A stretch of 61,886 bases of DNA, from NCBI GenBank assembly GCA_910574935.1, contig CAJTCU010000017.1, positions 1-61,886 on the forward strand, written 5' to 3'. Position 1 is the stretch's first letter. Each line of letters opens with the position of its first letter. Below are positions 1 through 44,153 of the stretch, in pieces. The translations under genes and the position numbers were made by a program. The notes beneath the pieces are model-generated. The model searched no databases, was not told where the DNA came from, and saw only the letters and a list, made by a program, of their open reading frames with translations. The stretch comes from Oscillospiraceae bacterium. Its GTDB lineage: Bacteria > Bacillota > Clostridia > Oscillospirales > Acutalibacteraceae.

Positions 1-120
1 ATGAACCCCAAGGCGTTGCAGTATATCATGGGACACGCCAACATCACGATGACGCTGAACTATTACGCCCATGCGACCTACGATTCCGCAAAGGCAGAAA
101 TGGAACGTCTGGCGGCATAG
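1..120 (+). CDS. Tyrosine integrase, C-terminal end only
   Basis: The first 39 codons are open from the window edge and end in TAG at 118-120. They read as the last part of a phage/ICE-type tyrosine recombinase. The stretch LQYIMGHANITMTLNYYAH matches the conserved GH...T..Y box that carries the tyrosine nucleophile. The rest of the gene lies outside the window, and the ATG at position 1 is internal, not the start. Integrases of integrative conjugative elements usually sit at one end of the element, so the sequence just after this stop is where an attachment site would be expected. The family call is firm; the element type is inferred. Confidence 0.85.
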   Translation: MNPKALQYIMGHANITMTLNYYAHATYDSAKAEMERLAA

Positions 121-283: not shown

Positions 284-496
284 TTGCTTGAGGTTTCGTT
301 TAAGAAAAATGGAATAGTGATGGGGGAAACTGTTCCCTTTGATACTGCCTTGAAATATGTCAGTGATAACAATTTATTAGAGGCATTGAAGTGGTTTGAC
401 AATCAAATTGCTTTTATTATATCTATTTTAGAACGCAATAAAGAAAGCAGCATTGGACAGAAGAAAAAAGTTTCCTCTATACTAGATGAATTATAA
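284..496 (+). CDS. Small hypothetical protein
   Basis: An open frame of 70 codons starts at TTG (284); an in-frame ATG lies at about 320. The product is charged and largely helical in character, with no motif I recognise. It is AT-rich like the 821-3770 operon downstream. There is no convincing ribosome site. The stop lies about 60 bp before the first double-hairpin element, which could serve as its terminator. It may be a real small gene of the island or a chance frame. Confidence 0.3.
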   Translation: MLEVSFKKNGIVMGETVPFDTALKYVSDNNLLEALKWFDNQIAFIISILERNKESSIGQKKKVSSILDEL

Positions 497-556
497 GTGT
501 CTCAGATAAGAAGGACTTTCCATGCTAAAGTATCGGTTTTCCTCAGTAGCACGTCT

Positions 557-656
557 GTGAGTTCAGGTACACTCACCAGTTTGGCAAAAATATCTTTTTG
601 GTCGTGCATTCACAAAAGGAGACAAAAGCATTTTAGAGGCTTTTGTCTCCCTTTTT
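557..656 (+). terminator. Double-hairpin element R1 with terminator
   Basis: A first hairpin pairs GTGAGT (557-562) with ACTCAC (571-576) around a TCAGGTAC loop. A linker containing TTTGGCAAAAATATC follows. A second hairpin then pairs GGAGACAAAAGC (618-629) with GCTTTTGTCTCC (639-650) and runs into CTTTTT, a classical intrinsic terminator. The whole unit has a diverged copy (R2) at 3785-3881 in the same orientation, with both stems kept by changes on both sides. No gene was seen between 497 and 820 apart from this element and a promoter. Confidence 0.8.
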
Positions 657-772
657 ATGCTCTAAAATTCTATTGCAGAAACAAAAAAGCGTGGATAGCG
701 TCATAATCCACTAATAATCATGTTCAACAGAAGAAAAAGCTGAAGCCAATTCCACTAATTTGTAAGTTCTAC

Positions 773-801
773 TTGAAAACATTTGAGCGACCCATTATAA
801 T
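773..801 (+). promoter_or_regulatory. Promoter of the recombinase-domain/KilA-N/GHKL operon
   Basis: TTGAAA (773-778) and TATAAT (796-801) are separated by 17 bp. They lie 20 bp upstream of the GTG at 821, which has a GGAAAGGAAG ribosome site. The promoter is downstream of terminator R1, so the operon is transcribed independently of what precedes it. Confidence 0.65.
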
Positions 802-820
802 GTAGGAAAGGAAGATAACC

Positions 821-1216
821 GTGAAGCTATCCCTGTTGGAATCAAAAATTTTTGGTAAGGTATGTTATGGCTTTCGACGCGACAAGAACAAGAGAGTAGA
901 AACAGTCGAGCCGGAGGCCGAAATTGTGCGGGAGATATTTGGCCTATACCTGTCAGGAAACAGTTTGGAGAAGATTCAGGAGCATTTGCGAAAGCAAGGT
1001 ATTCCGTCTCCATCCGGGAGAACTGTGTGGAGCCGTGATGTACTGAATAAGCTACTGAACAACTATAAGTACACGTTTGGCATTATCGACCACGCCACTT
1101 ACTTTGCTGTGGAAGAAATGAAGTCAAATCGGTGCAGAAATCCCAATCGGCATATTGAGGATGATGAAGAATGGAACGAGCAAGTCAATCTGAATTACTA
1201 TGGGCCTACGCTATAA
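821..1216 (+). CDS. Recombinase-domain protein lacking the catalytic domain
   Basis: This 131-residue protein starts at GTG 821. It matches only the DNA-binding Recombinase domain of large serine recombinases: FGKVCYGFRRD..., a VREIFGLYLSG helix, then a WSRDVLNKLLNNYKY segment. It has no resolvase catalytic domain (no YxRVS motif) and no zinc ribbon. The C-terminus (about residues 105-131) is acidic and does not resemble the family. Its last 46 bp overlap the next gene. It could be a stand-alone DNA-binding factor or the remnant of a truncated recombinase. Its own promoter, ribosome site and tight coupling to the next two genes favour a working operon member, but this is inference. Confidence 0.6.
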   Translation: MKLSLLESKIFGKVCYGFRRDKNKRVETVEPEAEIVREIFGLYLSGNSLEKIQEHLRKQGIPSPSGRTVWSRDVLNKLLNNYKYTFGIIDHATYFAVEEMKSNRCRNPNRHIEDDEEWNEQVNLNYYGPTL

Positions 1217-1752
1217 CGAGAGATGAGTACGCCAAGAGGCTAAGTGAAAAATCGCTGCTCAAAGCGGAAGACCTGGAGTTTATACGAGACCGTGTGTTTG
1301 AACTTATCAACCGTGGGGAGGCTAACATTCATGACCCGAAGGAGGAGCAAAGACTTCAAGCGGTTGTAGAAAAGTATTTATATCATGAAGTTGACTATAT
1401 CTCGCTAACAGATATCGCAAAGCGTTTTGATTCAGAGAACCCAAGCTATGTGATTCAAAGCTGGCTTCGCAGTAGGAACACGATTGCATTCTTAGGCCAG
1501 TGGGAAAGAGAAAATAATCGCAACTTTGACGAGCAGGCATTTCAGCAGTTGCTTTTTGATGTTCGCTCCCCTTCATATACCTTGACTCCTGCCAGATGGA
1601 TTGAAAGAGTAAGTGCTATTGGAATTATCTCCAAGCGAGGGAAAAACGGTGGCACTACGGCTCACCCCTTTATTGCGTGTGATTTCGAGATGTGGAACGA
1701 CATATCGTTTAGATATGATGTTATTAAACATTTTATCAAATCGAATCTTTAG
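1171..1752 (+). CDS. KilA-N domain protein
   Basis: The product has 193 residues. The C-terminal part, from about residue 75, is a KilA-N domain: YISLTDIAKRF, then IQSWLRSRNTIAFLGQWE, a WIERVSAIGIISK segment and GGTTAHPFIACDFEMW. KilA-N is a DNA-binding fold of phages and large DNA viruses, often found in antirepressor-like proteins. The N-terminal 70 residues are helical and unrecognised. The ATG at 1171 lies inside the previous gene in another frame. There is no strong ribosome site, so translational coupling is likely. The GHKL ATPase gene begins 17 bp after its stop. A DNA-recognition or regulatory role for the operon is plausible but unproven. Confidence 0.7.
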   Translation: MERASQSELLWAYAITRDEYAKRLSEKSLLKAEDLEFIRDRVFELINRGEANIHDPKEEQRLQAVVEKYLYHEVDYISLTDIAKRFDSENPSYVIQSWLRSRNTIAFLGQWERENNRNFDEQAFQQLLFDVRSPSYTLTPARWIERVSAIGIISKRGKNGGTTAHPFIACDFEMWNDISFRYDVIKHFIKSNL

Positions 1753-1769
1753 TATTAGGAGATTTTCAT

Positions 1770-3770
1770 ATGAGAAATTTCTCAATTAATTTGCGCGGCC
1801 GGGTAAATAACTTTAATCTTCCCAAAAACCAACCATTGATTCCTCTATTTGAAGCAATTGTGAATTCAATTCATGCTATTGCTGATCGCAAGAAAGAAGA
1901 AGAAAGTTTTGATGGAAGAATAGTGATTCGGATTCTCCGGGATGACCAAATAGTTTTAAACAGTAGTGATGAATTGCCTAGAATTCAGTCCTTTGAAATC
2001 ATAGATAATGGGATAGGATTTATTGACGAAAATCTGGTCTCTTTCATGGAGTCTGATTCTACCTATAAAGCTTCCATTGGGGGAAAAGGGGTGGGTCGCT
2101 TTTCCTGGCTTATTGCTTTTGAAAAAGCGGAGATAAATAGTAATTATAAAGAAAATGGACGCTTTTATAATAGGGAATTCAGCTTCTCTTTGGAACAAAA
2201 TGAGATAAATGATACCCCTTTGGAAATTGAAAATCAAGACGATAATTGCACTGTTGTGCGATTGGAAAATTGCATTGGCCCCTATTCTGCCAGTATGCCT
2301 AAACGTGCTCGTACTATTGCGATGCGTATTGTTGAACACTGTTTAGTATACTTTTTAGCGGATGATTGTCCACAAATTGATTTGTTTGATGATATTGATG
2401 GCTATAATTTAAACCATTTCTTTCATAGAAAAATTCAAGCTGATTCAACCAGTTCTACATTCACTATAGAGAATGTAGAATTTGACTTACTCCATGTAAA
2501 GGCTAAAGAGTCTACGATTAATGGGAACAAGCTATATCTTTGCGCTCATAATCGTTTAGTTGAAACTCGAGATTTAGACAAATATATTGTGGATTTGGAC
2601 AGAGCTATATATGAAAAAGGCGGTTTCTGGTATGTGGGAGTTTTGAGGAGCAGATATTTGGATGACTCTGTTGAGATGAACCGACTTTCTTTCAGCATTC
2701 CAGATAGAAGGTCTTCAAATGAAACGTCCGTCTTTTTAACCATGGACAAAATTATGGGTTCTGTTGTCAGCGCTGTCAGTGAATTCCTAAAGGACTACCT
2801 TCAGCCTATTGCGACAAGTAAAAAAGAAAGAGTAAAAGAATATGTTATCCATAAAGCTCCGCAGTTTAGACACCTATTGAAGTATATGCCAAAAGAAATT
2901 GATGCGATTAAGCCTAATTTAAGTGACGATGGGCTGGATGATGAACTGTACCGGATAAAAAGACAATTTGACCGGCAAATTTCAAGTGAAAATGAACAAC
3001 TATTAACTGATCTAAATAAAGGGATTCTCAGCACGGAAGAGTATATTTCTAAGTTTGGTGACCAAGTTGAAAAGGTGACAAGTGCTAATGGATCTGCCCT
3101 TGCAGAATATGTTGCTCATAGAAAGGTAATATTAGATTTGATGGAATTTGCCATAAAGAAAAAAGAGGATGGCAAATTCCAAAGAGAAAGCTTTTTGCAT
3201 AATCTCATTTACCCGATGCGTTCAACCTCTGAGGAACTACCATATAACAATCACAATTTATGGCTCATAGATGAAAAAATAGCTTATTGTAGCTATATTT
3301 CTTCTGATATCGCTTTTAATAATAGTACAAATCAGGAGAGAACAGATATATTAATATTGGATCGGCCAGTGGCTGTTTCTGATGAAGAAAACCGTGGGAG
3401 AGAATATGAATGTATAACAATTTTTGAACTTAAGCGACCTATGCGCGATGACTATAATGGGAGCACTAATCCTATAGATCAGTTGTATGGATATGTTACG
3501 AAATTAAAAACTAATCAGATGAGAGATAAAGACGGGAGAATTATCCGAGTAGGCGCTAATACAAAGTTCTACCTTTATGCAGTCTGTGACATAACAAGGT
3601 CTTTAGAACAGATCCTTGACTTTAGAGATTTTTCCCAAACCCCAGATAAAATGGGATATTATCTGTATAATGGCAAGTTGAATTCCTATATAGAGGTTTT
3701 GTCATATGATAAAATTATTTCTGATGCACAGAAACGAAACCAAATTTTATTTGATAAATTGGGAATTTAG
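1770..3770 (+). CDS. GHKL ATPase with C-terminal nuclease-like domain
   Basis: The protein has 666 residues and starts at ATG 1770 behind AGGAG. The N-terminus is a GHKL (Hsp90/MutL/gyrase-type) ATPase: FEAIVNSIHA at about 27-36 carries the N-box Glu and Asn, IDNGIGF at about 79-85 is the G1 box, and GGKGVGRFSW at about 104-113 is the G2 box. The C-terminus contains D526 in a hydrophobic strand (DILILD) and E553-L-K555 in ITIFELKRP, the spacing and setting of a PD-(D/E)XK nuclease core. The middle is helical and unassigned. The gene is AT-rich compared with its surroundings, a sign of transfer. MutL/Hsp90-type ATPases joined to nucleases occur in several anti-phage systems, and the next gene is a restriction enzyme. 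Defence is therefore the leading guess, but no named system could be assigned. Confidence 0.7.
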   Translation: MRNFSINLRGRVNNFNLPKNQPLIPLFEAIVNSIHAIADRKKEEESFDGRIVIRILRDDQIVLNSSDELPRIQSFEIIDNGIGFIDENLVSFMESDSTYKASIGGKGVGRFSWLIAFEKAEINSNYKENGRFYNREFSFSLEQNEINDTPLEIENQDDNCTVVRLENCIGPYSASMPKRARTIAMRIVEHCLVYFLADDCPQIDLFDDIDGYNLNHFFHRKIQADSTSSTFTIENVEFDLLHVKAKESTINGNKLYLCAHNRLVETRDLDKYIVDLDRAIYEKGGFWYVGVLRSRYLDDSVEMNRLSFSIPDRRSSNETSVFLTMDKIMGSVVSAVSEFLKDYLQPIATSKKERVKEYVIHKAPQFRHLLKYMPKEIDAIKPNLSDDGLDDELYRIKRQFDRQISSENEQLLTDLNKGILSTEEYISKFGDQVEKVTSANGSALAEYVAHRKVILDLMEFAIKKKEDGKFQRESFLHNLIYPMRSTSEELPYNNHNLWLIDEKIAYCSYISSDIAFNNSTNQERTDILILDRPVAVSDEENRGREYECITIFELKRPMRDDYNGSTNPIDQLYGYVTKLKTNQMRDKDGRIIRVGANTKFYLYAVCDITRSLEQILDFRDFSQTPDKMGYYLYNGKLNSYIEVLSYDKIISDAQKRNQILFDKLGI

Positions 3771-3784
3771 TTTCTCCCGATTTG

Positions 3785-3881
3785 AGAGTTCAGATACACA
3801 CTCTGGTTTGGCAAAAATATCTTTTTTGTCGTAGCTTCACAATGGGGAGGCAACAACATTTTGGGTGTTTTGCCTCCTTTT
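3785..3881 (+). terminator. Double-hairpin element R2 with terminator
   Basis: This is the second copy of the element at 557-656. AGAGT (3785-3789) pairs with ACTCT (3800-3804) around TCAGATACAC. The shared linker TTTGGCAAAAATATC follows, and GGAGGCAA (3846-3853) pairs with the TTGCCTCC arm before TTTTC. It begins 15 bp after the GHKL stop and ends about 37 bp before the GmrSD start. Both stems differ from R1 yet still pair, which points to selection on structure. Confidence 0.75.
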
Positions 3882-3918
3882 CGTATAATTGTTAAAATGT
3901 CTTTCAGGAGGGTCACGG

Positions 3919-5685
3919 ATGTCAAAAACTCTTTTTACGCCTGTCCCCCGCACGGTGCGGGAGCTTATTATGGAGGTGGAAACCGGAAAACTGGGCCTGC
4001 CTGACCTTCAGCGGGGCTATGTCTGGAGAGCCGCTAAGGTCCGCGACTTGCTGGACTCTATGCTGAAAGGCTACCCAATCGGCTATCTGATGATTTGGGA
4101 TGCGGCGGACAACACAGAGATAAGTAAAACGATAGGCATCGACAGCAAACCTTTTGGGACTCCCAAGAGTCTTGTGATAGATGGTCAACAGCGCCTGACC
4201 TCTTTATATGCTGTTATGTGTGGCAAAAAAATCGTTGACGATAAGTTCAACGAGAAACAGATCATCATTTCCTTTAACCCGCTGACCCGCACTTTTGCGG
4301 TGGGAGATAACGCAACAAAACGCGGCACGGAATGGATCTACGATATCAGCGAGGTATTCCGCAATGAGTCCAAAAGCTTTGCCTACATTTCGGAAAAAGT
4401 CCAAACCATCTCAGACGCCCGTGAGAAAACTGGCGGCACGCTGACGGATGACGAAAAGCAGCGTATCCAGCAAAACATTATGGACCTGCTTTCACTTTCC
4501 GGGTTCAGTATCCCTACGCTGGAAATCAGTGGCAACTCTGATGAAGAGAGCGTTGCTGACATTTTTGTGCGGGTCAACTCCGGTGGAGAAAAGCTGGGCG
4601 AGGATGATTTTATCCTCACGCTTATCTCTGTCTACTGGCCTGAGGGCCGTCAGAAAATCGTAGATTTCTGCCGTAGCGCGAAAACACCGAAACCGGGAAC
4701 GGCATACAACTTCCTGTTCCAGCCCTCTCCCACCCACATTGTGCGGGTTGCTATGAGCTATGGCTTTCAGCGGGCGAGGCTGCACTATGCCTATATGCTC
4801 CTGCGCGGCCGGGACTTTGAAAATGGTGTTTACACGGATAGCTTTCGTATTCAGAATTTTGAAAAGCTAAAACAAGTGTTGGAACAGGTGCTGGATGTGC
4901 AGATATGGAAAAACTTTCTCAAGTGCGTGGAGGCGGCTGGGTTCGTATCCAAATCGCTGATTTCCTCAGAAAATGCCCTGGTCTATTCTTATGTGATGTA
5001 CCTTTTCGGAAAGTTTTACTATGGCATGAGCGAGTCAGCCCTGCGAAAGCTGATCGCAAAGTGGTTCTTTATGACCGCTGTTACGGGGTATTACACCGGC
5101 TCTCCGGAAACGGATATGGAATCGGATTTGGCAGATCTGCGCAATGTGAAAACAGAGGAAACTTTTGTTGCGCTGTTGGAAAAGAAAATAGCCTCTGTGT
5201 TCACAGGGGACTATTTTGCCATCACTCTGCCCAACAGCCTGGCAAATTCCGCGCCGCGCAACCCGTCCTGGTTCGGTTATTGTGCCGCCTTGAATGTGCT
5301 GGACGCAAAGGTGCTGTTCTCGACGCTCCATACTCGGGAACTCTTTGATCCCACCGCTGATGGGAAGAAGAAAGCGCTGGAGAAACACCATCTGTTTCCA
5401 AAAGCATATTTGGCCAGGACTGGGATTGCAGATGACAGAGATCGAAACCAGATGGCCAACTTTGCTTTCATTGAGTGGAGCGATAACATTGAGGTGTTGG
5501 ACACAAGTCCTGCTGAATATATGAAAGACCAGCTTGCAAAGATCGCTCCTTCTGAGAAAGACAGCATTTATGCTGACCACGCTCTGCCAGAAAATTGGGA
5601 GCATATGGATTACTTTGACTTCTTGTCCAAGCGCCGGGTATTAATGGCGGAAGTGGTTAAGCGGGGGTATGAGCGGCTGCGGTAG
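3919..5685 (+). CDS. GmrSD-type restriction protein (DUF262-DUF1524)
   Basis: The protein has 588 residues and starts at ATG 3919, 6 bp after AGGAGG. The N-terminal DUF262 (GmrS-like, ParB/sulfiredoxin fold) shows LPDLQRGYVW at 27-36 and the nucleotide-binding DGQQR motif at 88-92. The C-terminal DUF1524 (GmrD-like) carries an HNH-type nuclease centre around EKHHLFPKAYL (His490-His491), with Asn and Asp residues downstream (NQMANFAFIEWSDN). The fused two-domain form is the usual single-chain version of this type IV restriction family, which cuts modified phage DNA. Some homologues act with phosphorothioate systems, none of which is seen here. It has its own start and ribosome site after terminator R2, so it may be a separate defence gene rather than part of the GHKL operon. 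Confidence 0.85.
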   Translation: MSKTLFTPVPRTVRELIMEVETGKLGLPDLQRGYVWRAAKVRDLLDSMLKGYPIGYLMIWDAADNTEISKTIGIDSKPFGTPKSLVIDGQQRLTSLYAVMCGKKIVDDKFNEKQIIISFNPLTRTFAVGDNATKRGTEWIYDISEVFRNESKSFAYISEKVQTISDAREKTGGTLTDDEKQRIQQNIMDLLSLSGFSIPTLEISGNSDEESVADIFVRVNSGGEKLGEDDFILTLISVYWPEGRQKIVDFCRSAKTPKPGTAYNFLFQPSPTHIVRVAMSYGFQRARLHYAYMLLRGRDFENGVYTDSFRIQNFEKLKQVLEQVLDVQIWKNFLKCVEAAGFVSKSLISSENALVYSYVMYLFGKFYYGMSESALRKLIAKWFFMTAVTGYYTGSPETDMESDLADLRNVKTEETFVALLEKKIASVFTGDYFAITLPNSLANSAPRNPSWFGYCAALNVLDAKVLFSTLHTRELFDPTADGKKKALEKHHLFPKAYLARTGIADDRDRNQMANFAFIEWSDNIEVLDTSPAEYMKDQLAKIAPSEKDSIYADHALPENWEHMDYFDFLSKRRVLMAEVVKRGYERLR

Positions 5686-5687: not shown

Positions 5688-5900
5688 TTACCGATGCTTA
5701 CACAAAAACTCCTTGATAAGTTCCCGATACCTTGCCGCCCCCGGCCTTTTCAGCACCTCCGGCGAGGCACAGTAAGCAATAAACTCCATCTTACTACAGT
5801 ACCGCACCCCGCCGACACTGACGCTGCTGATTACCCCTTTCCGCATCCAGTCTCCCACTCTCTGGGTTGCACAGCCGATTAACTCAGCGGCAAGCTTGTT
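5688..5900 (-). pseudogene. Excisionase-like helix-turn-helix gene, 5' end lost
   Basis: The minus strand reads ...LAAELIGCATQRVGDW, RKGVISSVSVGGVRYC, then KRPGAARYRELIKEFLCKHR and a stop at 5688. This looks like the C-terminal two thirds of a small MerR/excisionase-type DNA-binding protein. Its 5' part is replaced by the IS630 fragment that begins near 5889, so no start remains. It converges on the GmrSD gene, with stops 2 bp apart. Small proteins of this kind usually accompany integrases, which suits the element relic at the left edge. The family call is tentative. Confidence 0.5.
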
Positions 5901-6137
5901 ACGTCCTGGCTGGAAAAGCACAAAGAGAAAATCGAGGCGTTTTTCCTGCCTCCCTATGCTCCGGAATATAATCCGGATGAATACTTGAATCATGCCCTGA
6001 AGATTTCCGTACATTCAGGCCAATTGCCCGTTACTACGGAAGATATTTCCCATAAAATTCAGTCTTTTATGCGCAAATTGCAGCATCATCCATCTCGCGT
6101 ATCCAGCTTCTTCCGCCATCCAGCGAGTTTCTATCTT
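5889..6137 (+). mobile_element. IS630 transposase fragment (3' end)
   Basis: The frame from about 5889 reads GKLVTSWLEKHKEKIEAFFL, then PPYAPEYNPDEYLNHALK to SFMRKLQHHPS. It matches almost residue for residue the last 85 residues of the IS630 transposase at 31665-32717. The N-terminal part with the first two catalytic Asp residues is absent. The right end differs from the other copy after TATCTTTGC, so this is a decayed or recombined fragment. It splits the HTH gene on its left from an unidentified gene fragment on its right, which is open in the same frame. Confidence 0.85.
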
Positions 6138-6641
6138 TGCCTGCCGCATGTCACGGGTATGCTCCATCAGGCCGACTTCAAAGATTTTTTCACCAGCGGC
6201 TGTCAAACGATTACCGACCTCTGGGGCGTGGAGCATAACGTGCGTATTTGGAGAGATTACTGGATCGCGTTTTGGAAGTACCGCCATGTGCTTTACATCA
6301 CGCAGGCCGGTAAGGAAAAACCTGATAGGTTCACTACCTTGAACTACCAGTTTTTGAACACGGTTTCCATGACTGCCGATGAGTTTCGTCCCCAGGATTT
6401 GCCACTGGGATGGAGGGATTCTCCTGTGTTTGCCAAAGAATGGGATTCAAAGGCGGAGCAGATTCTCAAGCAGTACGCACTGGGGCCGCTCATTGTTGCG
6501 GGTGATAACCGCTATTTGTCCGGTGATTTGCTTGAACTTTTGACGCTACTTATCCCTCGCGGCAAATGGTACGAGCCTACCTTTCAGCAAAAACGCAAGG
6601 CGTTCTTTGAAAATGTTCTCAAGGAGGAGGAACCGTGCTGA
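6138..6641 (+). pseudogene. C-terminal part of an unrecognised gene
   Basis: From the end of the IS630 fragment the same frame stays open for 167 codons to TGA 6639-6641. Recognisable traits are a Trp/Tyr-rich stretch (IWRDYWIAFWKYRHVLY) and a leucine-rich C-terminus (LSGDLLELLTLLIPRGKWYE). I do not recognise the family. No start codon of its own is evident, so the 5' portion was probably removed by the IS630 insertion. The downstream gene begins within its last codons behind AAGGAGGAGG, showing that the two formed an operon, likely part of the same island as the GmrSD gene. Confidence 0.45.
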
Positions 6642-31618: not shown

Positions 31619-32717
31619 TTACTTTCGAAAGAAAAGCTAGGAAAGCGGGGGCAGGTGTGGTAAAATGGAAGGTATGGAATACATCGACTTGAGGAAAGTA
31701 GGGAGAGAGGGACTCAAGGAGATACGCAGGCAGGTAGTACGGCTCAAGGAAATGGGGAAAACGGGAAAAGAAATTGAGGAATTAACCGGTGTACGCCAGA
31801 ATCGCGCGAGCGAAATATGGACAGCGTATCAACGAGAAGGATCGGCCTCCCTGGAACGGAAAAAATACGGGCGAAAGCCCGGGAGCCATATGGTTCTAAC
31901 CCCGGAAGAGCAAGAGAATGTCCGGAAGACAATTGAGGAGAGAGTGCCGGAAGAATTCGGAATCACCGGCAGGTTGTGGACATTGGGACGGACGCGGGAA
32001 TATATCCAGAAGGAATTCCACAAAACGATCAGCGAGCGTACGCTGTCGGATTACATGAAGCGCTGGGGCATGAGCTGCCAGCGCCCGGTGAAGCGTGGGC
32101 GGAGACAGAACCCTCAGGGCATCTAAAGGTGGAAAAGCGAGGAATATCCTGCTGTTTTGAAGCGTGCGAAAGCAGAAAACGCCATCATCTATTGGGCAGA
32201 TGAGACTGGGGTAAGCAACTGCGAAATAGTAGAACGCGGCTTCTCACCTAAGGGTCGTCCTCCCGTGCTGCCAGTGGAGACGAAACGGCAGAGGGTCAAT
32301 ATGATCTCTGCCATCAGCAGCCAGGGCAGCGTCCGTTTCATGGTTTATCAGGACACCATGAACCAACAGCGGCTGATCCGTTTCATGCAGCGGCTGATTC
32401 GCACATCAGAGCAGAAAGTGTTCTTGATTCTGGACAATCTGAAGGTACACCACGGCAAGCTTGCTGCGGCCTGGCTGGAGAAGAATAAGGAGAAGATAGA
32501 GGTGTTCTTCCTGCCACCCTACGCGCCGGAATACAACACTGATGAATATTTGAATCACGCTTTGAAAATTTCCGTTCACTCGGGACAGCTGCCCTATACT
32601 GTGGAAGATATTTCCCACAAAATCCAGTCATTTATGCGCAGATTACAGCATCATCCCTCTGCCGGTTCCAGTTTCTTCCTTCATCCTTCACTTTCCTATC
32701 TTTGCACGCAGAAGTAA
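31619..32717 (+). mobile_element. IS630 family insertion sequence, 1099 bp
   Basis: The boundaries come from the interrupted MFS gene and from matching ends. The left end TTACTTTCG...AAAGCTAGGAAAG is an imperfect inverted copy of the right end (TTACTTCTG...AAAGATAGGAAAG on the other strand). TA is duplicated on both sides (31617-31618 and 32718-32719), the IS630/mariner signature. The transposase stop TAA is formed by the last three bases of the element. Confidence 0.9.
31665..32717 (+). pseudogene. IS630 transposase with one in-frame stop
   Basis: The frame is a single 350-residue transposase except for TAA at 32124-32126 (after RRQNPQGI, codon 154). The N-terminal HTH region (EIEELTGVRQNRASEIWTAY) and second HTH (YIQKEFHKTISERTLSDYM) precede the stop. 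The DDE catalytic part follows: WADETG, LILDNLKVHHGK and PEYNTDEYLNH supply the three acidic residues. TTG at 32157 could restart. A near-identical 3' fragment is at 5889-6137. Read-through or a fresh nonsense change is possible; the ends are intact, so it could move if complemented. Confidence 0.9.
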
Positions 32718-36975: not shown

Positions 36976-37036
36976 TTGGCACGCACGACCAAAAAGATAT
37001 TTTCGCCCAATCGGTGTGCGTATCCGAACCCTCACA

Positions 37037-38311
37037 TCAAACTGGTATCGTCTGCTCAACTTCTAATCCTCCTGCAAAAATCACCTTTAATTTATCTTTG
37101 GACTCCACCACCACGCACTCCAGCACCTGCCGTACCAGTCTGTCATCATACATCATTGGATGATTCTCCAGCCCATCCAGGATAGTAAAAATTTCATCCA
37201 GCCGGGACTCTGCATTCTCCTTTTCCTGCTGTGCATTGTCAAGTTGAGCCAACTGTTGCTCCAAGCTGTTTTTCTCAGCCATGAGCGCTGTGGCCTGATG
37301 CTCATCGAATTCCTCAACTGTGTCGGTAGCTATAGCCTGGAGCATAGCCTTGAACTTGGCATCGATTTCCGCTATCCTTATCTGGATATCCAGGCTGTTG
37401 TCCTCACTACTATCGTTTTTCAGGCCCATACCGATATGCAGTTTCAACGTACCCAGCACATCGGCACCCTGCTTTGCCGTGCGCATGATTGCTGCCATGA
37501 CGGCCTCCTGCAACACACTTTCCTCCATCGTGGGCGAGTGGTGGCAGTATTTCTTGCCGAAGTCCAACCGGTTGATGCACCGCCAGACGGGCTTCTTTTC
37601 GCCCTTGACCGTCCAGGTGCATCGGCGGTAAGGGGTGCCGCACTCACCACAGACCAGCAGTTCTGTCAAGGCATATTTACTGGAGTATCGGCCCTGCTCG
37701 GTCTTGGTGCCCTTTTGTTTGACCTTACGCTTGCCGGTGCGCCGCGCCAGTTCTTCCTGCGCCCGGCCAAAGGTGGCAGGGTCGATAATCGCCGGATGAT
37801 TGTTCTCTACATAATACTTGGGGCGCGCCTGCCCATCGTTGCGCTTGACCTTCTTGCTCAGGCAGTCCACATTTGAACATATCCATCGTTGCTGGCACTT
37901 CTTGAATCGGCTGTCATGCCGTCGAACCATCTCGCCGCCGCACTCTGGACAGGTTACCGACACATCTATATGGAAAATTTCACAGGTGCGGTCGGTACCG
38001 TGCTGGGTGTTCTTTTGGGCTTTCATCTCGACCATGACCTGGTGCGTTCCCTTATCAATAATTGCTGGAAAATTGTCCTTGCCGGTATATCGCTTATCCT
38101 CAATCAGGCGCATAATGCGGGACTTATTCCAGCCGGTAATGCCGGGCTGGTACTCTATATTTTCATCGTTCAGGCGGTTGGCAATTTTCAGCAGGGAGCA
38201 GCCGTTTTGATACTCGCTAAAGATGCGATTCAACACAGCAGCCTCTTGCGGATGGGTGGTTATCACGCCGTTCTGATACTGATACCCGAACGGGATATTC
38301 CTCTTTTTCAT
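37037..38311 (-). CDS. Serine recombinase partner without catalytic domain
   Basis: The protein has 424 residues from ATG 38311, whose ATGA overlaps the upstream stop. It begins directly with the Recombinase domain (KKRNIPFGYQYQNGVITTHP; SLLKIANRLNDENIEYQPG) and lacks the resolvase catalytic domain. Two Cys4 regions follow (CPECGGEMVRRHD...C; CGECGTPYRRC), then a coiled coil near residues 310-380. The frame is undamaged, so this looks like a dedicated partner rather than a broken gene. It is co-translated with the catalytic recombinase, suggesting a two-subunit integrase. Confidence 0.8.
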   Translation of the reverse strand: MKKRNIPFGYQYQNGVITTHPQEAAVLNRIFSEYQNGCSLLKIANRLNDENIEYQPGITGWNKSRIMRLIEDKRYTGKDNFPAIIDKGTHQVMVEMKAQKNTQHGTDRTCEIFHIDVSVTCPECGGEMVRRHDSRFKKCQQRWICSNVDCLSKKVKRNDGQARPKYYVENNHPAIIDPATFGRAQEELARRTGKRKVKQKGTKTEQGRYSSKYALTELLVCGECGTPYRRCTWTVKGEKKPVWRCINRLDFGKKYCHHSPTMEESVLQEAVMAAIMRTAKQGADVLGTLKLHIGMGLKNDSSEDNSLDIQIRIAEIDAKFKAMLQAIATDTVEEFDEHQATALMAEKNSLEQQLAQLDNAQQEKENAESRLDEIFTILDGLENHPMMYDDRLVRQVLECVVVESKDKLKVIFAGGLEVEQTIPV

Positions 38312-39861
38312 TCCGTGTGACACCTCACATTCTCAGGGATTAGCTCCGTAAAGGCCAGCCCGCCAATGAGATGAAAGGTCATCCGGGAATTATCCATGAC
38401 CGTGATGCTCTGGACAATTTCCTCGAATAACGCTTGGCTAAATGGTGTACCCGGCACATATCCGTCCAGGGTATCGTCCAGTGATTTCAGCGTATATATC
38501 AGCTCATCGTCCTCATCCTCTGCCAGTGCCTTTTTGCGGTCAAGCCGCAAGGCATTGATCTTGTTGCTGATTACCGAGGACTGAGCGGCGAAGTCGGTAG
38601 CATTTAGAACGCCGTTTGTATGGAGCCGGGCGACCACCAGATTCTGCACACTCAAATCGGCTATCTGCTTGTCGATCTGCCATATCTTTTCCTGGCTCTC
38701 GCTGCCATGATTCTGCATCACCTCCAGTTGTTGGATGAGCGTGCCCAGCAGGTCTTGCCGGTGGGAGGCCAACTTGTCCACCATCAAGCAGAAGGTGTCG
38801 AAGATGGCATTTTCTCGCACACGTCTGCTCTGACAATCTGTAGCCCCTGCAGCCTTGCCGCTGCATAGCCAGTAGGCGGTGCCGTTCAAAGAAAGCCTGC
38901 GGAATGTCCGGCCGCACTCAGGGCAATGGAGGACACCTGTTAAGGGGTAGTCACCCTCACGCTTATGACTGGCATTCCGGGAGTTTTGCAGTTCCTGCGC
39001 TGCCTGATACACCTCTTTGCTCACAATGGATGGGTTGCTATTTTCTACATAATATTGCGGTTTTTCGCCCCGGTTCTTTTTCTTTCTGAATGGCAGAGTG
39101 TCCGTCGTGAACTTCTTTTGCAGAAGCGCGTCGCCCATATACCGCTCGTTGTTGATCACATAATTTATGGTATTGTGGCACCATTTCTTCTGTGCGTACC
39201 TCCGTGGAACACCCTCTGCATTGAGGATGTTCGCAATATTTTGCTTGCCCACGCCTTGCAGATAAAGGTCAAAAATGCGGCGAATCACAGCCGCCTCATC
39301 CTCTTTCACCACAAGCTGGCCATCGATCAAATCATATCCATAAGCCGGAGCACAGCAGTTGAACTCGCCAGACTCCATGCGCATTTGATAACTCCTTCGC
39401 AGGTGGTCGGAAATGTTCACGCTCTCCTGCTGGGCCGCCATGCCGGGGAAAGTCACCAGCATTTCCATATTCATCTTTTCGCTGTCGATGCCCTGTTCCT
39501 CGAAGTAAATACTCACGCCCAACTCCTTGAGGGTACGCAGGGCTACAAGTAGTTCCTGCGTGTTTCTCGCAAATCGTGATACGGACTTGGTAATGACCCG
39601 GTCGATTTTGCCCAACTTGCAGTCACGGATAAGCCGATTCTGCTCATCACGCTTTTTCATGTCCGTGCCGCTCAAGCCCTCGTCAGCGTACACATCCACC
39701 AACTTGTACTGCGGGTTTTTGCGCTCGTAATCCTTATAGTAGCGAATCTGAGCGGCAAAAGAGTGCAACTGGTCAGCGGATTTGCTGGACACCCGGCAGT
39801 AGGCTGCAAGCCGGATTATCTCAGGCTTTTGCGGTTCCCGGCTGATGTCGGTTACAGTCAT
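38308..39861 (-). CDS. Large serine recombinase, catalytic
   Basis: The protein has 517 residues; ATG 39861 has AAAGG nine bases upstream, better placed than the ATG at 39870. The catalytic domain has LAAYCRVSSKSAD (Ser25) and ITKSVSRFARNTQELL. The Recombinase domain (AAVIRRIFDLYLQGVGKQNI), a zinc ribbon (LHCPECGRTFRRL...C) and a coiled coil (about 400-460) follow. This is the site-specific integrase/excisionase type used by Tn4451-like elements and phages. It overlaps the catalytic-less partner by 4 bp. Confidence 0.9.
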   Translation of the reverse strand: MTVTDISREPQKPEIIRLAAYCRVSSKSADQLHSFAAQIRYYKDYERKNPQYKLVDVYADEGLSGTDMKKRDEQNRLIRDCKLGKIDRVITKSVSRFARNTQELLVALRTLKELGVSIYFEEQGIDSEKMNMEMLVTFPGMAAQQESVNISDHLRRSYQMRMESGEFNCCAPAYGYDLIDGQLVVKEDEAAVIRRIFDLYLQGVGKQNIANILNAEGVPRRYAQKKWCHNTINYVINNERYMGDALLQKKFTTDTLPFRKKKNRGEKPQYYVENSNPSIVSKEVYQAAQELQNSRNASHKREGDYPLTGVLHCPECGRTFRRLSLNGTAYWLCSGKAAGATDCQSRRVRENAIFDTFCLMVDKLASHRQDLLGTLIQQLEVMQNHGSESQEKIWQIDKQIADLSVQNLVVARLHTNGVLNATDFAAQSSVISNKINALRLDRKKALAEDEDDELIYTLKSLDDTLDGYVPGTPFSQALFEEIVQSITVMDNSRMTFHLIGGLAFTELIPENVRCHTE

Positions 39862-40022
39862 TTGCACCATTCCTTTCTTTGATTTTTGCCTTTTGGCACC
39901 ACCAACAATACCACAAGAGTTCAGATACATCCAGCGCAAAACGCTAGAGTTTTCATTTCAGACATATCTTTTTGCTCCATCCTGCAACGCTGATCTGACA
40001 AATTAAACTTTTGTATAATGAA

Positions 40023-40353
40023 GTGGCCGCCCAAAACGGACGGCCACGTTATCCTATCAATCGTTTTGCTTGTCCATATTTGTTCTCAACTTCCCTGGAC
40101 AGGGAACACACCTCCCGGCCTATGCACACGAGATGCTTTGCATCTCGACCTCATTGGAATCTCACCACCTCCAGGATCTCTGGAGGGCGCCCTCCTTTGC
40201 TGCGACGGGTCACGCTCGGCTTTAGGACGGGACGCAAGTATCATTATCCCTTCTGCCGGTCATCGCCGTCGATGGATGTGCGTTCCATCGTCTGAGCCTG
40301 GAGGCCAACATTCTGGCGTCCGCTCATGTAGCTGCCGCTCCTCACGGCGGCAG
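40023..40353. other. Hairpin-rich non-coding region upstream of the recombinases
   Basis: At least six short perfect hairpins lie in 330 bp: GTGGCCG/CGGCCAC (40023-40047), TTCCCTG-GA-CAGGGAA (40091-40106), CGAGATGC-TTT-GCATCTCG (40129-40147), CCTCCAG/CTGGAGG (40168-40186), CGATGGA/TCCATCG (40270-40290) and CTGCCGC/GCGGCAG (40332-40353). No coding frame is convincing. It sits between the sigma-like gene and the recombinase pair, both on the minus strand, so it could be a long structured leader RNA, an origin of transfer, or the recombination site. Confidence 0.55.
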
Positions 40354-40460
40354 AAGGAAAGTAAAAGATGCGCTGAATATTCAATTTTCAAAGAGCAACG
40401 GAGGGCAGAAAAAAGCCCTCTCGCTTTCCATGCCGAAAAACGAAAGGGCTGACAACCAAA

Positions 40461-40979
40461 TTATTTCAAATTTTTTGCTTTCCGTAGTTTTGCCAGAATC
40501 TGGACTTTGCGCCTGTGGATGGCATTCTGAGACACATGAAATCGCTCCGCGACGGCCCGTTCACTAAGCTGTTGACTGAAGATGAGATACAGAATTTTCT
40601 GCTCATCTTCAGACAACCTCTTGAACTCAAGCTGGAGGTTGTCCAACATGATTTCATTTTCTACGTCACCAGCCGTATCGGATGCCATGTCAACCAGAAT
40701 ATCCTCACCATTGAACTCATCCGTGGTGAGCATATCGTAGGAAAAATCGCCGTTCTTTGCAGAGCGCTCGTCCAGATATTTCTGGCGGCGTTTGTCTTTG
40801 TAGAACGCTTTATAGTCACTCTCAGACACTTCCATCAACATACCGTGCAGGGGTATGAACCGCCTGCTTGCATAGCACTCTTTTTTCTGACTGAACTGAG
40901 CATAACTGAGTTCCACATACATTCCATCTTCCAAAACGAACACTTTCCTTGGTGGGTATTTCACCGTTGATTCCTCCAA
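40461..40979 (-). CDS. Sigma-70-like factor of a mobile element
   Basis: The protein has 172 residues. The N-terminal half (KVFVLEDGMYVELSYAQFSQ; KRRQKYLDERSAKNGDFSYD) is the type found in ICE/transposon regulators. The C-terminus is a sigma region 4 helix-turn-helix (LSEDEQKILYLIFSQQLSER; VAERFHVSQNAIHRRKVQIL). Region 2 is not evident. Such proteins are typically encoded beside recombinases in Clostridia elements and probably control their expression. Confidence 0.8.
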   Translation of the reverse strand: MEESTVKYPPRKVFVLEDGMYVELSYAQFSQKKECYASRRFIPLHGMLMEVSESDYKAFYKDKRRQKYLDERSAKNGDFSYDMLTTDEFNGEDILVDMASDTAGDVENEIMLDNLQLEFKRLSEDEQKILYLIFSQQLSERAVAERFHVSQNAIHRRKVQILAKLRKAKNLK

Positions 40980-41084
40980 TCAATCTGTTTTGGGTTTGGC
41001 AAAACGATTGATTGGGGGGCTTCGGCATCTTGCGAAAACAAGATTATAGAGTTTAAAAGATTTATGTTTTTCTTCCTTTGATGA

Positions 41085-41276
41085 GGTGTATTGTAATACA
41101 TCACCAAAGGCATACAGACTTATCTCAAAACATTGAAATACAGTTTAATCCGTTGTATGCTTCCAATAAGTCCAAGCAGAGTGCTCAAAGGGTTATTTCA
41201 CTCCTGACAGGAATCTCAATACACTAAATTGAGGTACTTCCGTGAATTTTGTCGAAGCGGCGTGTATTGTACAATA
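41085..41276. promoter_or_regulatory. Operator dyads before the XRE gene
   Basis: GGTGTATTGTAATACATCACC (41085-41105) and the perfect TATTGTACAATA (41265-41276), 19 bp before the ATG at 41295, share the half-site TATTGTA. They are likely binding sites of the adjacent XRE regulator and control both it and the divergent sigma-like gene. The remaining 40980-41294 shows nothing else. Confidence 0.6.
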
Positions 41277-41294
41277 TTTCTGAGGTGAAGTAGA

Positions 41295-41696
41295 ATGCCA
41301 CAATATACACGCCCACTGGGTGATGCTGTGAAACGAGCCAGAGGTGAACTGGGAGTCACACAACGGCAGGTCGCTGAGGCTGCTGATGTGGATGTCCGAA
41401 CCGTACTGAACATAGAGAACTATAAGGGAAATCCTAAATTGGAAGTCTTATACCCCTTAATCCGTTCTCTAAAAATTGATTCACGGGAAGTTTTCTACCC
41501 CGAACTTCTCCGCGACAGCCCTGGCCTTCGCCGACTGCGATTCCTGGTAGAAGACTGCAGCGAAGAGGAGGCCGCTCTCTTTGGCTCCAATCATCGAGTC
41601 AATTATTGCTGCGATCCGGACAAATTCCGCTATCAAAATCCAGTAGAACAGAAAAGAGCCTGTACCCTCAGTAGAGGATGCAGGCTCTCCGTATAG
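41295..41696 (+). CDS. XRE family regulator
   Basis: The protein has 133 residues from ATG 41295 behind GAGGTG. LGDAVKRARGELGVTQRQVA and ADVDVRTVLNIENYKGNPKL form a Cro/CI helix-turn-helix (about 8-62). The remainder (REVFYPELLRDSPGLRRLRF; CSEEEAALF) is shared with element-encoded XRE regulators. The last 20 codons run into a hairpin (AGAGCCTG 41655-41662 with CAGGCTCT 41681-41688), so the C-terminus may be truncated. It is divergent from the sigma-like gene. Confidence 0.85.
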   Translation: MPQYTRPLGDAVKRARGELGVTQRQVAEAADVDVRTVLNIENYKGNPKLEVLYPLIRSLKIDSREVFYPELLRDSPGLRRLRFLVEDCSEEEAALFGSNHRVNYCCDPDKFRYQNPVEQKRACTLSRGCRLSV

Positions 41697-41706
41697 TACG
41701 ACTGGC

Positions 41707-41880
41707 TCATTTTTTAATTATCATTTTGAATTGTACAACATCTATCAGTGTTTCTTTTCTACATTTCGGACAGAATAGGGGGAAGTTGACAAGGACGGTG
41801 TCCTGGTACACTTTGTTGCGTGTCTTGCCTCCACATGAAGGACAGTGTATCCATCTTGATTTCTGTTGTTTCTTCTGCAA
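41707..41880 (-). CDS. Cysteine-rich KTR protein
   Basis: The minus-strand frame reads WIHCPSCGGKTRNKVYQDTV, then LVNFPLFCPKCRKETLIDV to stop 41707-41709. Two CxxC pairs and the KTR motif identify the cysteine-rich KTR family found in Tn916-like and other Bacillota elements. There is no ATG; TTG at 41878-41880 is the best start (57 residues). The frame is open to 41943, with no better start. It is a small zinc-ribbon protein of unknown role. Confidence 0.75.
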   Translation of the reverse strand: MQKKQQKSRWIHCPSCGGKTRNKVYQDTVLVNFPLFCPKCRKETLIDVVQFKMIIKK

Positions 41881-41962
41881 CTGTACATCCCCACTTTCTC
41901 TTTGCGCAGCTCTGCGACTGAGCGGCTGGCTTTTGCGCAGTTAGTTCTTATTGTGTCTATGT

Positions 41963-43321
41963 TTATATAGCCAGGGCGGACTTTGTCAATTCCCGGTGAA
42001 GACGTATTGCCATCAGCACCGTAATTATGGCAGAAGCGCCATCAGCAATAGGCTGTGCGTAAAGTATCCCATTTAGTCCACACAGTGCGGGTAGCAGTAG
42101 GATGACCGGCACAAAGCAGATTCCTTGTCTGCAAGCGCCAAGGAAAAATCCTGCAGCTCCTTTTCCCAAGGCCAGGAGAAGGGACGAGTACACAGTGTAG
42201 AACCCGAATAGAATGAAAGATATGCCGTTTGCCCTTAAAGAGCTTGCGCCTACAGATATCATTTCAGCATTACCGTCTGTGAAGGCTGAGATGATCTGCG
42301 TTGAAAAAATTGCCATGAACAGCCCGGTGATCACACAGAAGATTGTCGACCATATCGTGGATGTTCTGATGGCTTCCTTGAGCCGGTCAAACTTTTTTGC
42401 TCCGTAGCTGAACCCAGCAATAGGCTGGAACCCTTTTAAGAATCCAAACACCACTAATGTTCCCATAGAAGTTACCCTTGTAACGGCTCCCATTCCGGCG
42501 ATGACCGCATCACCATAATTGCTGGCGGCCCGGTTGATAAGAGCGATGGATACACTGGTGAGGACTTGAAATGTGAGTGTTGGAACACCAATTTTCAAAA
42601 TTTCCGACATCATCTGCTTTGTGGGAGCAAACTCTCTTATACTGAAAGTAAAGGCAGATTTCTTTCTGAACACATATGTCAAGTACACCAGTGTGGACAC
42701 AAATTGGGATATTGCCGTGGCAATGGCTGCTCCAGCAACTCCCATGTCAAGAGCATAAATGAACACAGGATCAAGGCCGATGTTAAGGACTGCCCCTAAG
42801 AGAAGGGCGCACATAGTGGTTTTTGCAGCCCCTTCACTTGACACAATATTGTTCATCGTGACGTTGAATACATTGAAGATGGAGGAGAGCACATAAATCC
42901 TTGCATATGTTACCGCATAGGACATAATGGTTTCCGTTGCCCCTAACATGGTCAGAATCGGTTCCAAAAATATACTGGCGCCGACGATAAGGGCAGCTCC
43001 AATAAGGACACTGCCATACAATGCGGTACTGGCAACTTTGTTGGCGGCCTCATTTTTCCCGCTTCCCAGCAGCCGGGATAGGTAGGAAGCCGCACCGTTG
43101 CCAAACATCAAGCCAAGTCCCACTACCACCTGCCCCAAGGGGAAAACAACGGAGATAGCTCCCATCTGGCTTTCACCCAACCCACCTACAAAGTAGGCAT
43201 CTACCAGATTGTATAGGGCGTTGATGAGCATTCCGATCATGATAGGGATGCCCAGGGCCAGGAGTGCTTGGGGGATAGGTGCGCTGCCTAGCAGTTCCAT
43301 TTTCTTGTTGCGTTCGTTCAT
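41963..43321 (-). CDS. MATE family efflux transporter
   Basis: The protein has 452 residues from ATG 43321. The typical start is LLGSAPIPQALLALGIPIMI, then GMLINALYNLVDAYFVGGLG, and the second half has ALINRAASNYGDAVIAGMGA. Twelve hydrophobic helices are present. It is divergent from the PadR gene and its promoter carries a related operator, so it is probably a PadR-controlled drug pump. Third MATE pump in the window; the three are not close paralogues. Confidence 0.92.
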   Translation of the reverse strand: MNERNKKMELLGSAPIPQALLALGIPIMIGMLINALYNLVDAYFVGGLGESQMGAISVVFPLGQVVVGLGLMFGNGAASYLSRLLGSGKNEAANKVASTALYGSVLIGAALIVGASIFLEPILTMLGATETIMSYAVTYARIYVLSSIFNVFNVTMNNIVSSEGAAKTTMCALLLGAVLNIGLDPVFIYALDMGVAGAAIATAISQFVSTLVYLTYVFRKKSAFTFSIREFAPTKQMMSEILKIGVPTLTFQVLTSVSIALINRAASNYGDAVIAGMGAVTRVTSMGTLVVFGFLKGFQPIAGFSYGAKKFDRLKEAIRTSTIWSTIFCVITGLFMAIFSTQIISAFTDGNAEMISVGASSLRANGISFILFGFYTVYSSLLLALGKGAAGFFLGACRQGICFVPVILLLPALCGLNGILYAQPIADGASAIITVLMAIRLHRELTKSALAI

Positions 43322-43390
43322 TCATTTACTCCTTTCGGGCAACTAGTGAATTTGATAGTGACAGAAATTAGAGTAGTTGCCGCAAAAGGG

Positions 43391-43475
43391 ATTATACTAC
43401 TTTTTAGAGTGGTTGTCAAGATAGTAATTGCAGGGAGAATCTTTTCTTGACATCTGCTCTAAAATAGAGTATCAT
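43391..43475. promoter_or_regulatory. Divergent promoters with PadR-type operators
   Basis: For the pump (minus): TTGACA (43414-43419) and TATAAT (43391-43396), 17 bp apart, with ACTCTAAAAAGTAGT in the spacer. For padR (plus): TTGACA (43447-43452) and TATCAT (43470-43475), 17 bp apart, with CTCTAAAATAGAG in the spacer. The shared CTCTAAAA...AG dyad in both spacers points to one repressor. A third ACTCTAA half-site lies near 43368. Confidence 0.8.
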
Positions 43476-43518
43476 AATAACATAACGATGAATCTGATTT
43501 ACAGGAAGGCGGCAGGAA

Positions 43519-44052: not shown

Positions 44053-44064
44053 TGTACTTCTTAT

Positions 44065-44152
44065 ATTGGTTAGTTCACTACACCTTCCATCATGACAGGT
44101 ACCACCTTCCACCGAGAGCATACAGTTTTCTCTTGGCGGAAGGAGTGTTTTT
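44065..44152 (+). repeat. Intergenic element, copy B
   Basis: ATTGGTTAGTTCACTACACC, CATCATGACAG, then CCACCTTCCACCGAGAG pairing with CTCTTGGCGGAAGG and GTTTTT. Same order as copies A and C. It begins 13 bp after the padR stop. Confidence 0.8.
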
Positions 44153-44153
44153 A

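Follow-up and report, generated by a model that had tools for sequence, protein, structure and literature searches.

Three adjacent genes of an Oscillospiraceae bacterium read as a known kind of defence gene inside a probable tRNA-anchored mobile cassette

Do three tightly packed genes of one operon necessarily act as one immune system? The question is raised by positions 821-3770 of a 61,886-nt stretch of DNA (the whole of which is hereafter called the window: positions 1 to 61,886 of contig CAJTCU010000017.1, Oscillospiraceae bacterium assembly GCA_910574935.1, family Acutalibacteraceae), where a first-pass annotation had seen a candidate undescribed defence system made of a recombinase DNA-binding domain, a KilA-N protein and a GHKL ATPase with a nuclease-like end. 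Our comparisons point to a different answer: the trio probably does not form a single new defence system, and the operon instead joins a known kind of stand-alone defence gene to the head of a mobile cassette. We hold with good confidence that window 614-3841 represents one 3.2-kb cassette of a mobile, tRNA-anchored family of gut bacteria, which would dock at tRNA 3' ends or behind an earlier cassette, with a recombinase triplet acting in trans. Each unit would comprise, in order, a hairpin, a two-gene head (in one group, the window included), an exchangeable and usually anti-phage cargo, and a 54-nt tail. The locus is thus read differently than before, as co-transcription alone would have implied a new multi-gene system.

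The operon, its head genes and exchangeable cargo

The order and packing of the three open reading frames (ORFs) are as first described. The first, P0001 (821-1216, plus strand, 131 amino acids), matches the Pfam family PF07508 Recombinase alone (E 2.4e-12), with the Resolvase catalytic domain absent, while the second, P0002 (1171-1752, plus strand, 193 amino acids), is a KilA-N protein (PF04383, E 4.5e-10; PADLOC PDC-S22, E 6.2e-39). The third, the cargo (1770-3770, plus strand, 666 amino acids), is a GHKL ATPase with a PD-(D/E)xK-like C-terminus in the architecture of VcSduA. P0001 and P0002 overlap by 46 nt, and a gap of 17 nt separates P0002 from the cargo gene. The proposal of one promoter for all three fared less well: a promoter-like site with an 11/12 match (TTGAAA-17-TATAAT) does precede the head genes at 773-801 on the plus strand, but because such sites exceed expectation in the window (19 versus 10.2), a promoter common to the three ORFs is plausible only. 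The G+C content is mosaic, with 53% for the window, 43-44% for the head, 36% for the GHKL gene and 32% for a NACHT remnant upstream. The first reading had furthermore overlooked two boundaries, a 60-nt direct repeat (83% identical) on both sides of the trio and a strong hairpin at 612-660.

P0001 and P0002 behave as real genes under purifying selection. All 11 of the 11 loci compared, which span several genera, retain the 46-nt overlap of the two. The ratio of nonsynonymous to synonymous substitution rates (dN/dS) is 0.05-0.10 for P0001 and 0.13-0.14 for P0002, with four same-genus comparisons for each gene, the synonymous rate being saturated in 11 of 12 head-gene comparisons with other genera. 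Aligned with 12 other heads, P0001 is 29-95% identical. P0002 is matched in 22 of 398 genomes of the family, many through the KilA-N domain alone; among the matches listed, those reaching its N-terminal 50 residues belong to head loci only, and the rest cover the KilA-N domain. Within the genus the pair is multi-copy, one genome having seven P0002 matches, several of them at contig ends, and a scan of viral contigs for the head returned none. Two distant relatives of P0001 (214 amino acids, in loci L058 and L059 by our numbering) keep an apparent zinc ribbon beside the recombinase domain, as judged by eye from the alignment, and for this reason head gene 1 looks like a recombinase minus its catalytic part only. 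The cargo stands directly behind P0001 in L092, L101 and L097; L090 shows a fusion of P0001 with a STAND fragment.

Behind the head, the cargo is exchanged from cassette to cassette. It is defence-type in 16 of the 22 cassettes scanned with Pfam and PADLOC (L051-L054 lying outside this set), of which 12 calls rest on a PADLOC match at E <=1e-5, and those of the window, L092, L097 and L101 on Pfam domains or the literature. Besides the GHKL nuclease of the window, the list holds DUF2971/PDC-S31 with an AAA ATPase (L048), a PHP-ATPase with weak GajA/Ppl matches (L050), QatA, QatC and QatD with a fourth ORF (L091), NACHT-SNaCT7 (L092, L101), Avs4 (L095; partial in L098), SIR2-STAND (L097), SIR2 with HerA (L055), Tmn (L056), an ion channel with FRG (L057), a UvrD-like helicase with a SIR2-TPR gene (L149), a helicase with DUF2290 (L058), PDC-S53 (L144) and a SIR2 protein with ThsA-like matches (L150). 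Not counted as defence were L096 (a 96-amino-acid fragment with a PDC-S60 match at 3.2e-6), L094, L099 and L059 (no PADLOC match in the single ORF scanned) and L090, with its STAND fragment fused to P0001.

Most likely, the head proteins would bind the attachment region and the cassette promoter, guiding recombination or restraining expression. The pair may, on the other hand, be a regulator that represses or induces the downstream immune operon, similar to CapK-CapS, and that travels because it shares a promoter with its cargo; we regard this as a serious possibility, if a somewhat doubtful one. The pair sits between the promoter-like site and the cargo with its overlap kept, and tail-bearing units without a head exist. 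Like CapK-CapS, which is placed upstream of diverse immune operons in the cited part of PMC13373217, it recurs before unrelated defence systems. However, P0001 has the DNA-binding domain found in the enzymes proposed to mobilise the cassette, and recombinase 2 of the triplet described below likewise has PF07508 without a Resolvase domain. The protein families also differ from the kinase and STAS-like repressor of CapK-CapS, as PF07508 and KilA-N are the only domains of the pair above the Pfam cut-off, with neither a kinase nor a STAS domain, and the pair here lies inside a mobile unit with defined ends. As a function of the head, a regulator role is almost as likely as one in recombination, and the two are compatible.

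Cassette ends, probable docking sites and the recombinase triplet

A comparison of right ends of the proposed mobile cassettes yielded the tail, a 54-nt motif with fixed spacing (GTTCRR-N-T, 17 free positions, RAAAATATCTTTTT, 9 partly free positions, YTCACA), which we take to be a putative recombination site and whose first part, in our own reading, resembles a tRNA T-loop. It occurs without mismatch at 561-614 (plus strand), as the tail of the upstream cassette and a putative attachment site, and at 3788-3841 (plus strand), where it ends the GHKL cassette; a decayed copy with 3 mismatches (36976-37029, minus strand) lies directly after a recombinase gene. No match at <=5 mismatches arose in 20 shuffles of the window, one strand each. 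With <=2 mismatches, the tail is found in 51 of the 398 family genomes, including those from which the pattern was derived, and in 36 of 135 genera, while a reversed control pattern is found in none; class-wide it is present in 7 of 341 genomes, that of the window included, with the other six in five further families. A cassette end 39 bp beyond the tail was considered and rejected, as similar trailers had given a false extension and the right end is the tail itself.

At the left end, the cassette starts with a hairpin followed by T residues (614-655, plus strand; 612-660 folds at -18.8 kcal/mol, z -5.3), and the same start is found at tRNA 3' ends in relatives. It aligns with the hairpin that opens the next unit (3842-3881, plus strand; 3840-3888 folds at -18.4 kcal/mol, z -4.1), and the first bases of the cassette also fold into a hairpin in the two relatives tested (L140 and L141). 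A simple terminator scan of the window gave no excess (3 versus 2.4).

Of 26 heads, for which the counts of tRNA proximity stand without a matched random control, 13 follow an intact tRNA gene (Pro, Gly, Tyr, Gln twice, Met, Ser five times, Arg and Val). In 12 of these the tRNA 3' end is the exact starting point of the hairpin, the exception being L059, with a different start sequence and P0001 194 bp behind the tRNA. Six heads, the window included, start exactly behind a 54-nt tail, and another four (L096, L101, L147 and L057) follow tRNA 3'-half sequence, as judged by eye. Dropped from this count were L102 (a remnant), L105 (49 bp of head), L094 (a KilA-N fragment), L038 (fragments) and L051 and L052 (contig starts without P0001), together with L134-L139, L141, L143, L145, L146 and L148 as repeats of other loci, L148 being the same as L057.

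The final A of an intact tRNA CCA is the first base of the unit in L049, L050, L054, L091, L092 and L099. Two genomes (G217 and G282) share a 4.1-kb unit (head, DUF2971 protein and AAA ATPase) at 99.6% identity, with both flanks differing, and two others share a second unit (head and PDC-S53 helicase) at 95% identity over 4,065 bp. When the right-flank sequences of L049 and L050 were searched in the genus, 9 of 20 loci had the flank directly after an intact tRNA CCA, free of a cassette (L112 Pro, L114 Leu, L115 Arg, L117 Ser, L118 Arg, L120 Arg, L125 Leu, L126 Val and L129 Leu), with L115 corresponding to the window's own tRNA-Arg. These joints show the junction tRNA-CC/A-trailer (a slash marks the joint) rather than strict empty orthologues, because most cassette-free tRNAs differ from the occupied ones; the insertion therefore reads tRNA-CC/A-hairpin...cargo...CAC/A-trailer. 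The trailers after tRNA genes (the right flanks of L049 and L050, and L111-L129) are themselves common to many different tRNAs in the genus, as if several unit families docked at tRNA ends.

Which enzyme would act on these ends? Three adjacent serine recombinase genes are all present in L090, L095, L202 and L213. The tail lies directly behind the cluster in L090 and L095, where all three genes are open, and a short way behind one in L213. Resolvase, Recombinase and zinc-ribbon domains are all present in recombinases 1 and 3 of L095, whose recombinase 2 matches PF07508 with no Resolvase match. Ten of 11 close recombinase-3 genes (genus matches >=83% identical that reach the C-terminus; G403:C113, short of the C-terminus, was left out) have a tail <=16 bp away, in one case, that of the window, with 3 mismatches; two of the ten, both in the window genome, are hybrids of recombinases 2 and 3. 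Within the genus, 29 of 34 tails fall in the 6 genomes with a close recombinase 3, and 5 in the other 23 genomes. The window itself retains triplet recombinase 1 (38308-39939, minus strand, 543 amino acids; Resolvase E 4e-26, with Resolvase, Recombinase and zinc-ribbon domains) and a hybrid of recombinases 2 and 3 (37037-38323, minus strand; PF07508 and Zn_ribbon_recom above cut-off, no Resolvase) that is 91% identical to residues 273-549 of recombinase 3.

In all, 21 tails in 20 loci were followed up. Seven have a same-strand tRNA 163-2268 bp upstream, and three have triplet genes upstream of them, some 0.2, 3.6 and 6 kb away (two tails in L213, one in L202). The stretch from tRNA to tail measures 167-2268 bp in six loci, three of which hold ORFs of >=60 residues there, one being Nudix-like by eye. 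In L141, three tail-like sequences stand in a row behind one tRNA-Ser, of which two fit the pattern and the third is degenerate.

We propose that the triplet of serine recombinases on other units with the same tail constitutes the catalytic machinery, so that cassettes devoid of a recombinase would be moved in trans. The joint of tail and hairpin in a circular cassette would recombine with a tRNA end (..CC/A) or with another tail (..CAC/A), which would leave the tRNA intact and build tandem arrays.

Several observations weigh against this proposal. Excision, a circle or transfer was not seen, mobility being deduced from comparison of sequences; in the window no tRNA anchor was found, and its triplet, 33 kb from the cassette, is decayed to recombinase 1 and the Resolvase-less hybrid. 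Three of the 26 heads (L098, L149 and L058) have neither tRNA nor tail at the expected place, and those behind tRNA 3'-halves resemble what ordinary tRNA islands leave as scars. One of the 11 close recombinase-3 genes, a broken copy (G217:C61), is without a nearby tail, and none of 11 recombinase-3 matches below 83% identity has a tail that close. Two of the three tails preceded by a triplet lie 3-6 kb from it. Eleven of the 21 tails show no tRNA, of which nine have <1.2 kb of sequence before the contig end and fell outside the triplet search; the other two (L201 and L207) have neither tRNA nor triplet in the 2.2-2.4 kb upstream. The head, too, is not always complete or intact: the KilA-N gene is missing from the NACHT and SIR2-STAND cassettes, the KilA-N frame of L142 has stops, L150 has stops in both head frames, and tail-bearing units exist without any head, which is therefore unnecessary for being a cassette. 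Finally, the cargo of L142, a transglutaminase and a radical SAM protein (the latter with a pVip match at 4.8e-10), was not counted as defence. In that locus (L142:10001-14552), the head with the broken KilA-N gene precedes the transglutaminase, the radical SAM gene and a small ORF of carrier-like appearance, a set that suggests peptide modification and not defence. In L147, the P0001 frame has no start codon at the expected place.

Two further accounts of the same ends were considered. Movement solely by homologous recombination of heads, tails and tRNA ends, by way of transformation or conjugation and with an ancient site-specific step, appears unlikely. It would be permitted by the multi-copy heads, whose DNA identity within the genus is 84-94% apart from the 99.6% pair, and it would fit the decay of the local triplet; the exact-ended insertions at different tRNA genes however suggest a site-specific step, and triplets that are open with a tail behind them occur in L090 and L095. 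Alternatively, tails, hairpins and heads may be relics of ordinary tyrosine-integrase islands in tRNA genes, with the triplet merely sharing the hot spot, which we find quite improbable. tRNA 3' ends are indeed classic tyrosine-integrase sites (cited part of PMC4701971), the four heads behind tRNA 3'-halves are placed as such islands leave them, window 1-120 holds a tyrosine-integrase C-terminus, and some tails or heads have integrase-like ORFs nearby (L107 and L054, by eye). On the other hand, a single tail pattern is common to many different tRNAs, the tail is tied to recombinase 3 within 16 bp in nearly all close copies (10/11), and the head-bearing cassettes with ORFs listed show no integrase ORF by eye.

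The GHKL cargo gene

Returning to the operon as a cassette with its cargo, the third gene finds a described counterpart. According to the cited part of PMC12137116, VcSduA is a single gene encoding a GHKL ATPase with a C-terminal PD-(D/E)xK (DUF4263) nuclease; it stops phages in E. coli and Vibrio cholerae, E27A or K557A variants fail, and the protein is classed as GHKL-Shedu, type I-D, having earlier been annotated paraMORC3. The window protein looks like a stand-alone anti-phage nuclease of this known kind. The GHKL N-terminus is common to both, a C-terminal PD-(D/E)xK nuclease and a single-gene habit are probably so, and the catalytic positions correspond (E27/K557 in VcSduA versus E28/K555 here), a likeness drawn by architecture and key positions with the VcSduA sequence itself outside the comparison. 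A Vibrio fluvialis homologue has E27 and K556, and this homologue and one from a Salinivibrio plasmid are 33% identical to the window protein over the full length. Unlike VcSduA, the window copy sits behind a head pair inside a cassette.

Congruent with the motif first proposed, none of the 34 aligned sequences departs from D526, E553 and K555, or from the GHKL residues E28, N32, D79, G81, G104, G107, G109 and R110. The HATPase_c_3 match is sub-threshold (E 0.002), and the predicted structure of the full protein (predicted local distance difference test, pLDDT, 85; predicted template modelling score, pTM, 0.71) resembles Hsp90, SMCHD1 and GyrB in the PDB, with all 50 listed matches (Hsp90/TRAP1, GRP94, SMCHD1, GyrB, ParE and complexes) at E <=3.3e-10. 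Named matches in a BFVD fold search include topoisomerases, HSP90-like and RIIA proteins, and a PDB sequence search with the GHKL alignment recovered GHKL parts only, at E 0.066 or worse. For the C-terminus, the model (pLDDT 69) has the McrC nuclease as its best PDB fold match, a weak one at E 0.017. The nuclease end claimed earlier thus stands as an invariant motif, and as a fold it is weakly confirmed, the match being suggestive. Against the assignment, the Shedu models of Pfam and PADLOC do not recognise this C-terminus (no DUF4263 match in Pfam; PADLOC SduA only at E 0.018, at residues 385-443). Likeness to VcSduA is therefore strong by architecture and invariant sites but incomplete. In a VcSduA-type protein, a clamp of the GHKL dimer would close on invading DNA, driven by ATP, and switch on the C-terminal nuclease, which would cut phage DNA without partners.

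Relatives of the GHKL gene are found in 57 plasmid records (51 with >=80% coverage), one phage record and 33 IMG/VR loci, as well as in 5 of the 398 family genomes, partial copies and the window itself included. Nine plasmid or phage regions were inspected (8 plasmids and 1 phage, 8 of them annotated; 49 other plasmid records lie outside the sample), and several of these neighbourhoods are defence-type, with type I restriction, a CBASS-like set, AbiE or a Shedu protein; the phage copy adjoins an integrase. In none of 44 other GHKL loci (8 plasmid, 1 phage, 33 viral and 2 genome loci), among them relatives 54-68% identical to the window protein, did a search for P0001, P0002 and P0004, the only genes sought as partners, find a relative of any of them nearby (tblastn, E 1e-3, within the flanking sequence available). 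The trio as one defence system was rejected on this count, its failure to recur elsewhere being what the first reading had itself named as a refutation, and a true three-gene system, in which the recombinase domain and KilA-N would serve as target recognition for the GHKL nuclease, is hardly credible: the three genes share an operon with tight spacing and all their frames are open in the window, but neither partner has a relative near any of the 44 loci, the pair is found with many other cargoes, and VcSduA, whose architecture was already described, works as a single gene (cited part of PMC12137116).

Record annotation places a recombinase family protein upstream of the GHKL gene in two of these loci. 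That in L008 is a resolvase with a catalytic domain. That in L009, some 2 kb away on the far side of AbiE genes, is a truncated recombinase of 133 amino acids in which part of PF07508 is weakly matched (E 5.8e-5). Three cut or broken copies were left out of the 44: in L018 the GHKL gene is cut by the contig end, with a recombinase-domain match about 0.5 kb downstream; L019 is a broken copy; and L097 holds a GHKL remnant, 94% identical, followed by a tail and another cassette.

Relation to known elements and flanking features

The cargo, serine-integrase triplets and serine-recombinase cassettes at the 3' end of a gene are each already known in kind. Integron cassettes line up in arrays of small units with diverse genes, a short recombination site closing each one. 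The present units would be similar in forming small-unit arrays with a closing site (L141, and the 0.2-2.3 kb units from tRNA to tail in six loci, where the tail would be the site); they differ in docking at tRNA ends and in their link to serine recombinases. Staphylococcal cassette chromosome (SCC) and Enterococcus cassette chromosome (ECC) elements are likewise cassettes that depend on serine recombinases and occupy a conserved gene's 3' end, with variable cargo that includes restriction systems (cited part of PMC6222049). Whereas SCC/ECC use rlmH and ccrAB, the units here go with many tRNA genes and a recombinase triplet, span about 0.2 to 6 kb and have a head without a catalytic domain. 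P0001, the only protein run, scored E 0.016 and 0.084 against the CcrC and CcrB models, far below the cut-off, and the docking site does not match that of SCC/ECC, as half of the heads follow an intact tRNA and six a tail, no search having been aimed at rlmH. Streptococcal integrative and conjugative elements also have three serine recombinases in a row; their targets mutT, traG and hsdM are disrupted, with 2-8 bp direct repeats, and neither tRNA 3' ends nor arrays of recombinase-less cassettes are reported for them in the cited part of PMC4701971. Among the open-licence papers that our literature searches listed, there was no description of docking at many tRNAs, of small recombinase-less cassettes with a fixed tail, or of a head made of an inactive recombinase and KilA-N.

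More tentatively, and with slightly more doubt than belief, we suggest a capture platform separate from integrons and SCC: the triplets would treat many tRNA 3' ends and resident tails as one docking class, any tRNA could seed an array, P0001 would be an address label used in trans, and one group would shuttle single anti-phage systems among gut Clostridia. Anti-phage systems are gained and swapped quickly, and their known carriers include prophages, satellites, integrons and SCC. Cassettes docked at tRNAs, linked to serine recombinases and with exact ends would give a new route of defence turnover in gut Clostridia. The fixed 54-nt motif would allow them to be listed and their cargo to be mined for undescribed defence genes, and a recombinase fragment without an active site as an address label is a testable idea.

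The defence association claimed for the locus is supported. Upstream of the GHKL cassette lies the cargo remnant of another cassette, the C-terminus of a NACHT protein (284-496, plus strand; SNaCT7, PF22712, E 8.3e-23), and window 295-616 shares 95% identity with the closing stretch of the NACHT cassette in L092. Downstream, the restriction gene noted earlier is a DUF262/GmrSD_N protein (3919-5685, plus strand; PF03235, E 7.8e-31; PADLOC HEC-05, E 2.1e-42), behind which the tail scan of the window found no tail. Since 284-613 is thus the end of a NACHT cassette, the locus forms a tandem of three units: NACHT remnant, GHKL cassette and GmrSD-type unit.

Further along, positions 36983-48353 were considered as one element docked at the tRNA-Arg gene (48354-48430), which was rejected, as the sequence that follows is a trailer seen after other tRNAs. 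At the very start of the window, 1-120 reads as a tyrosine-integrase C-terminus cut by the window edge, and a 119-bp copy of it, 96% identical, is found in L049 about 2.4 kb beyond the cassette. Window 5688-6641 and 32454-32705 hold repeated fragments (relatives of P0006/P0007) that also occur in L052 and are likely transposon remnants.

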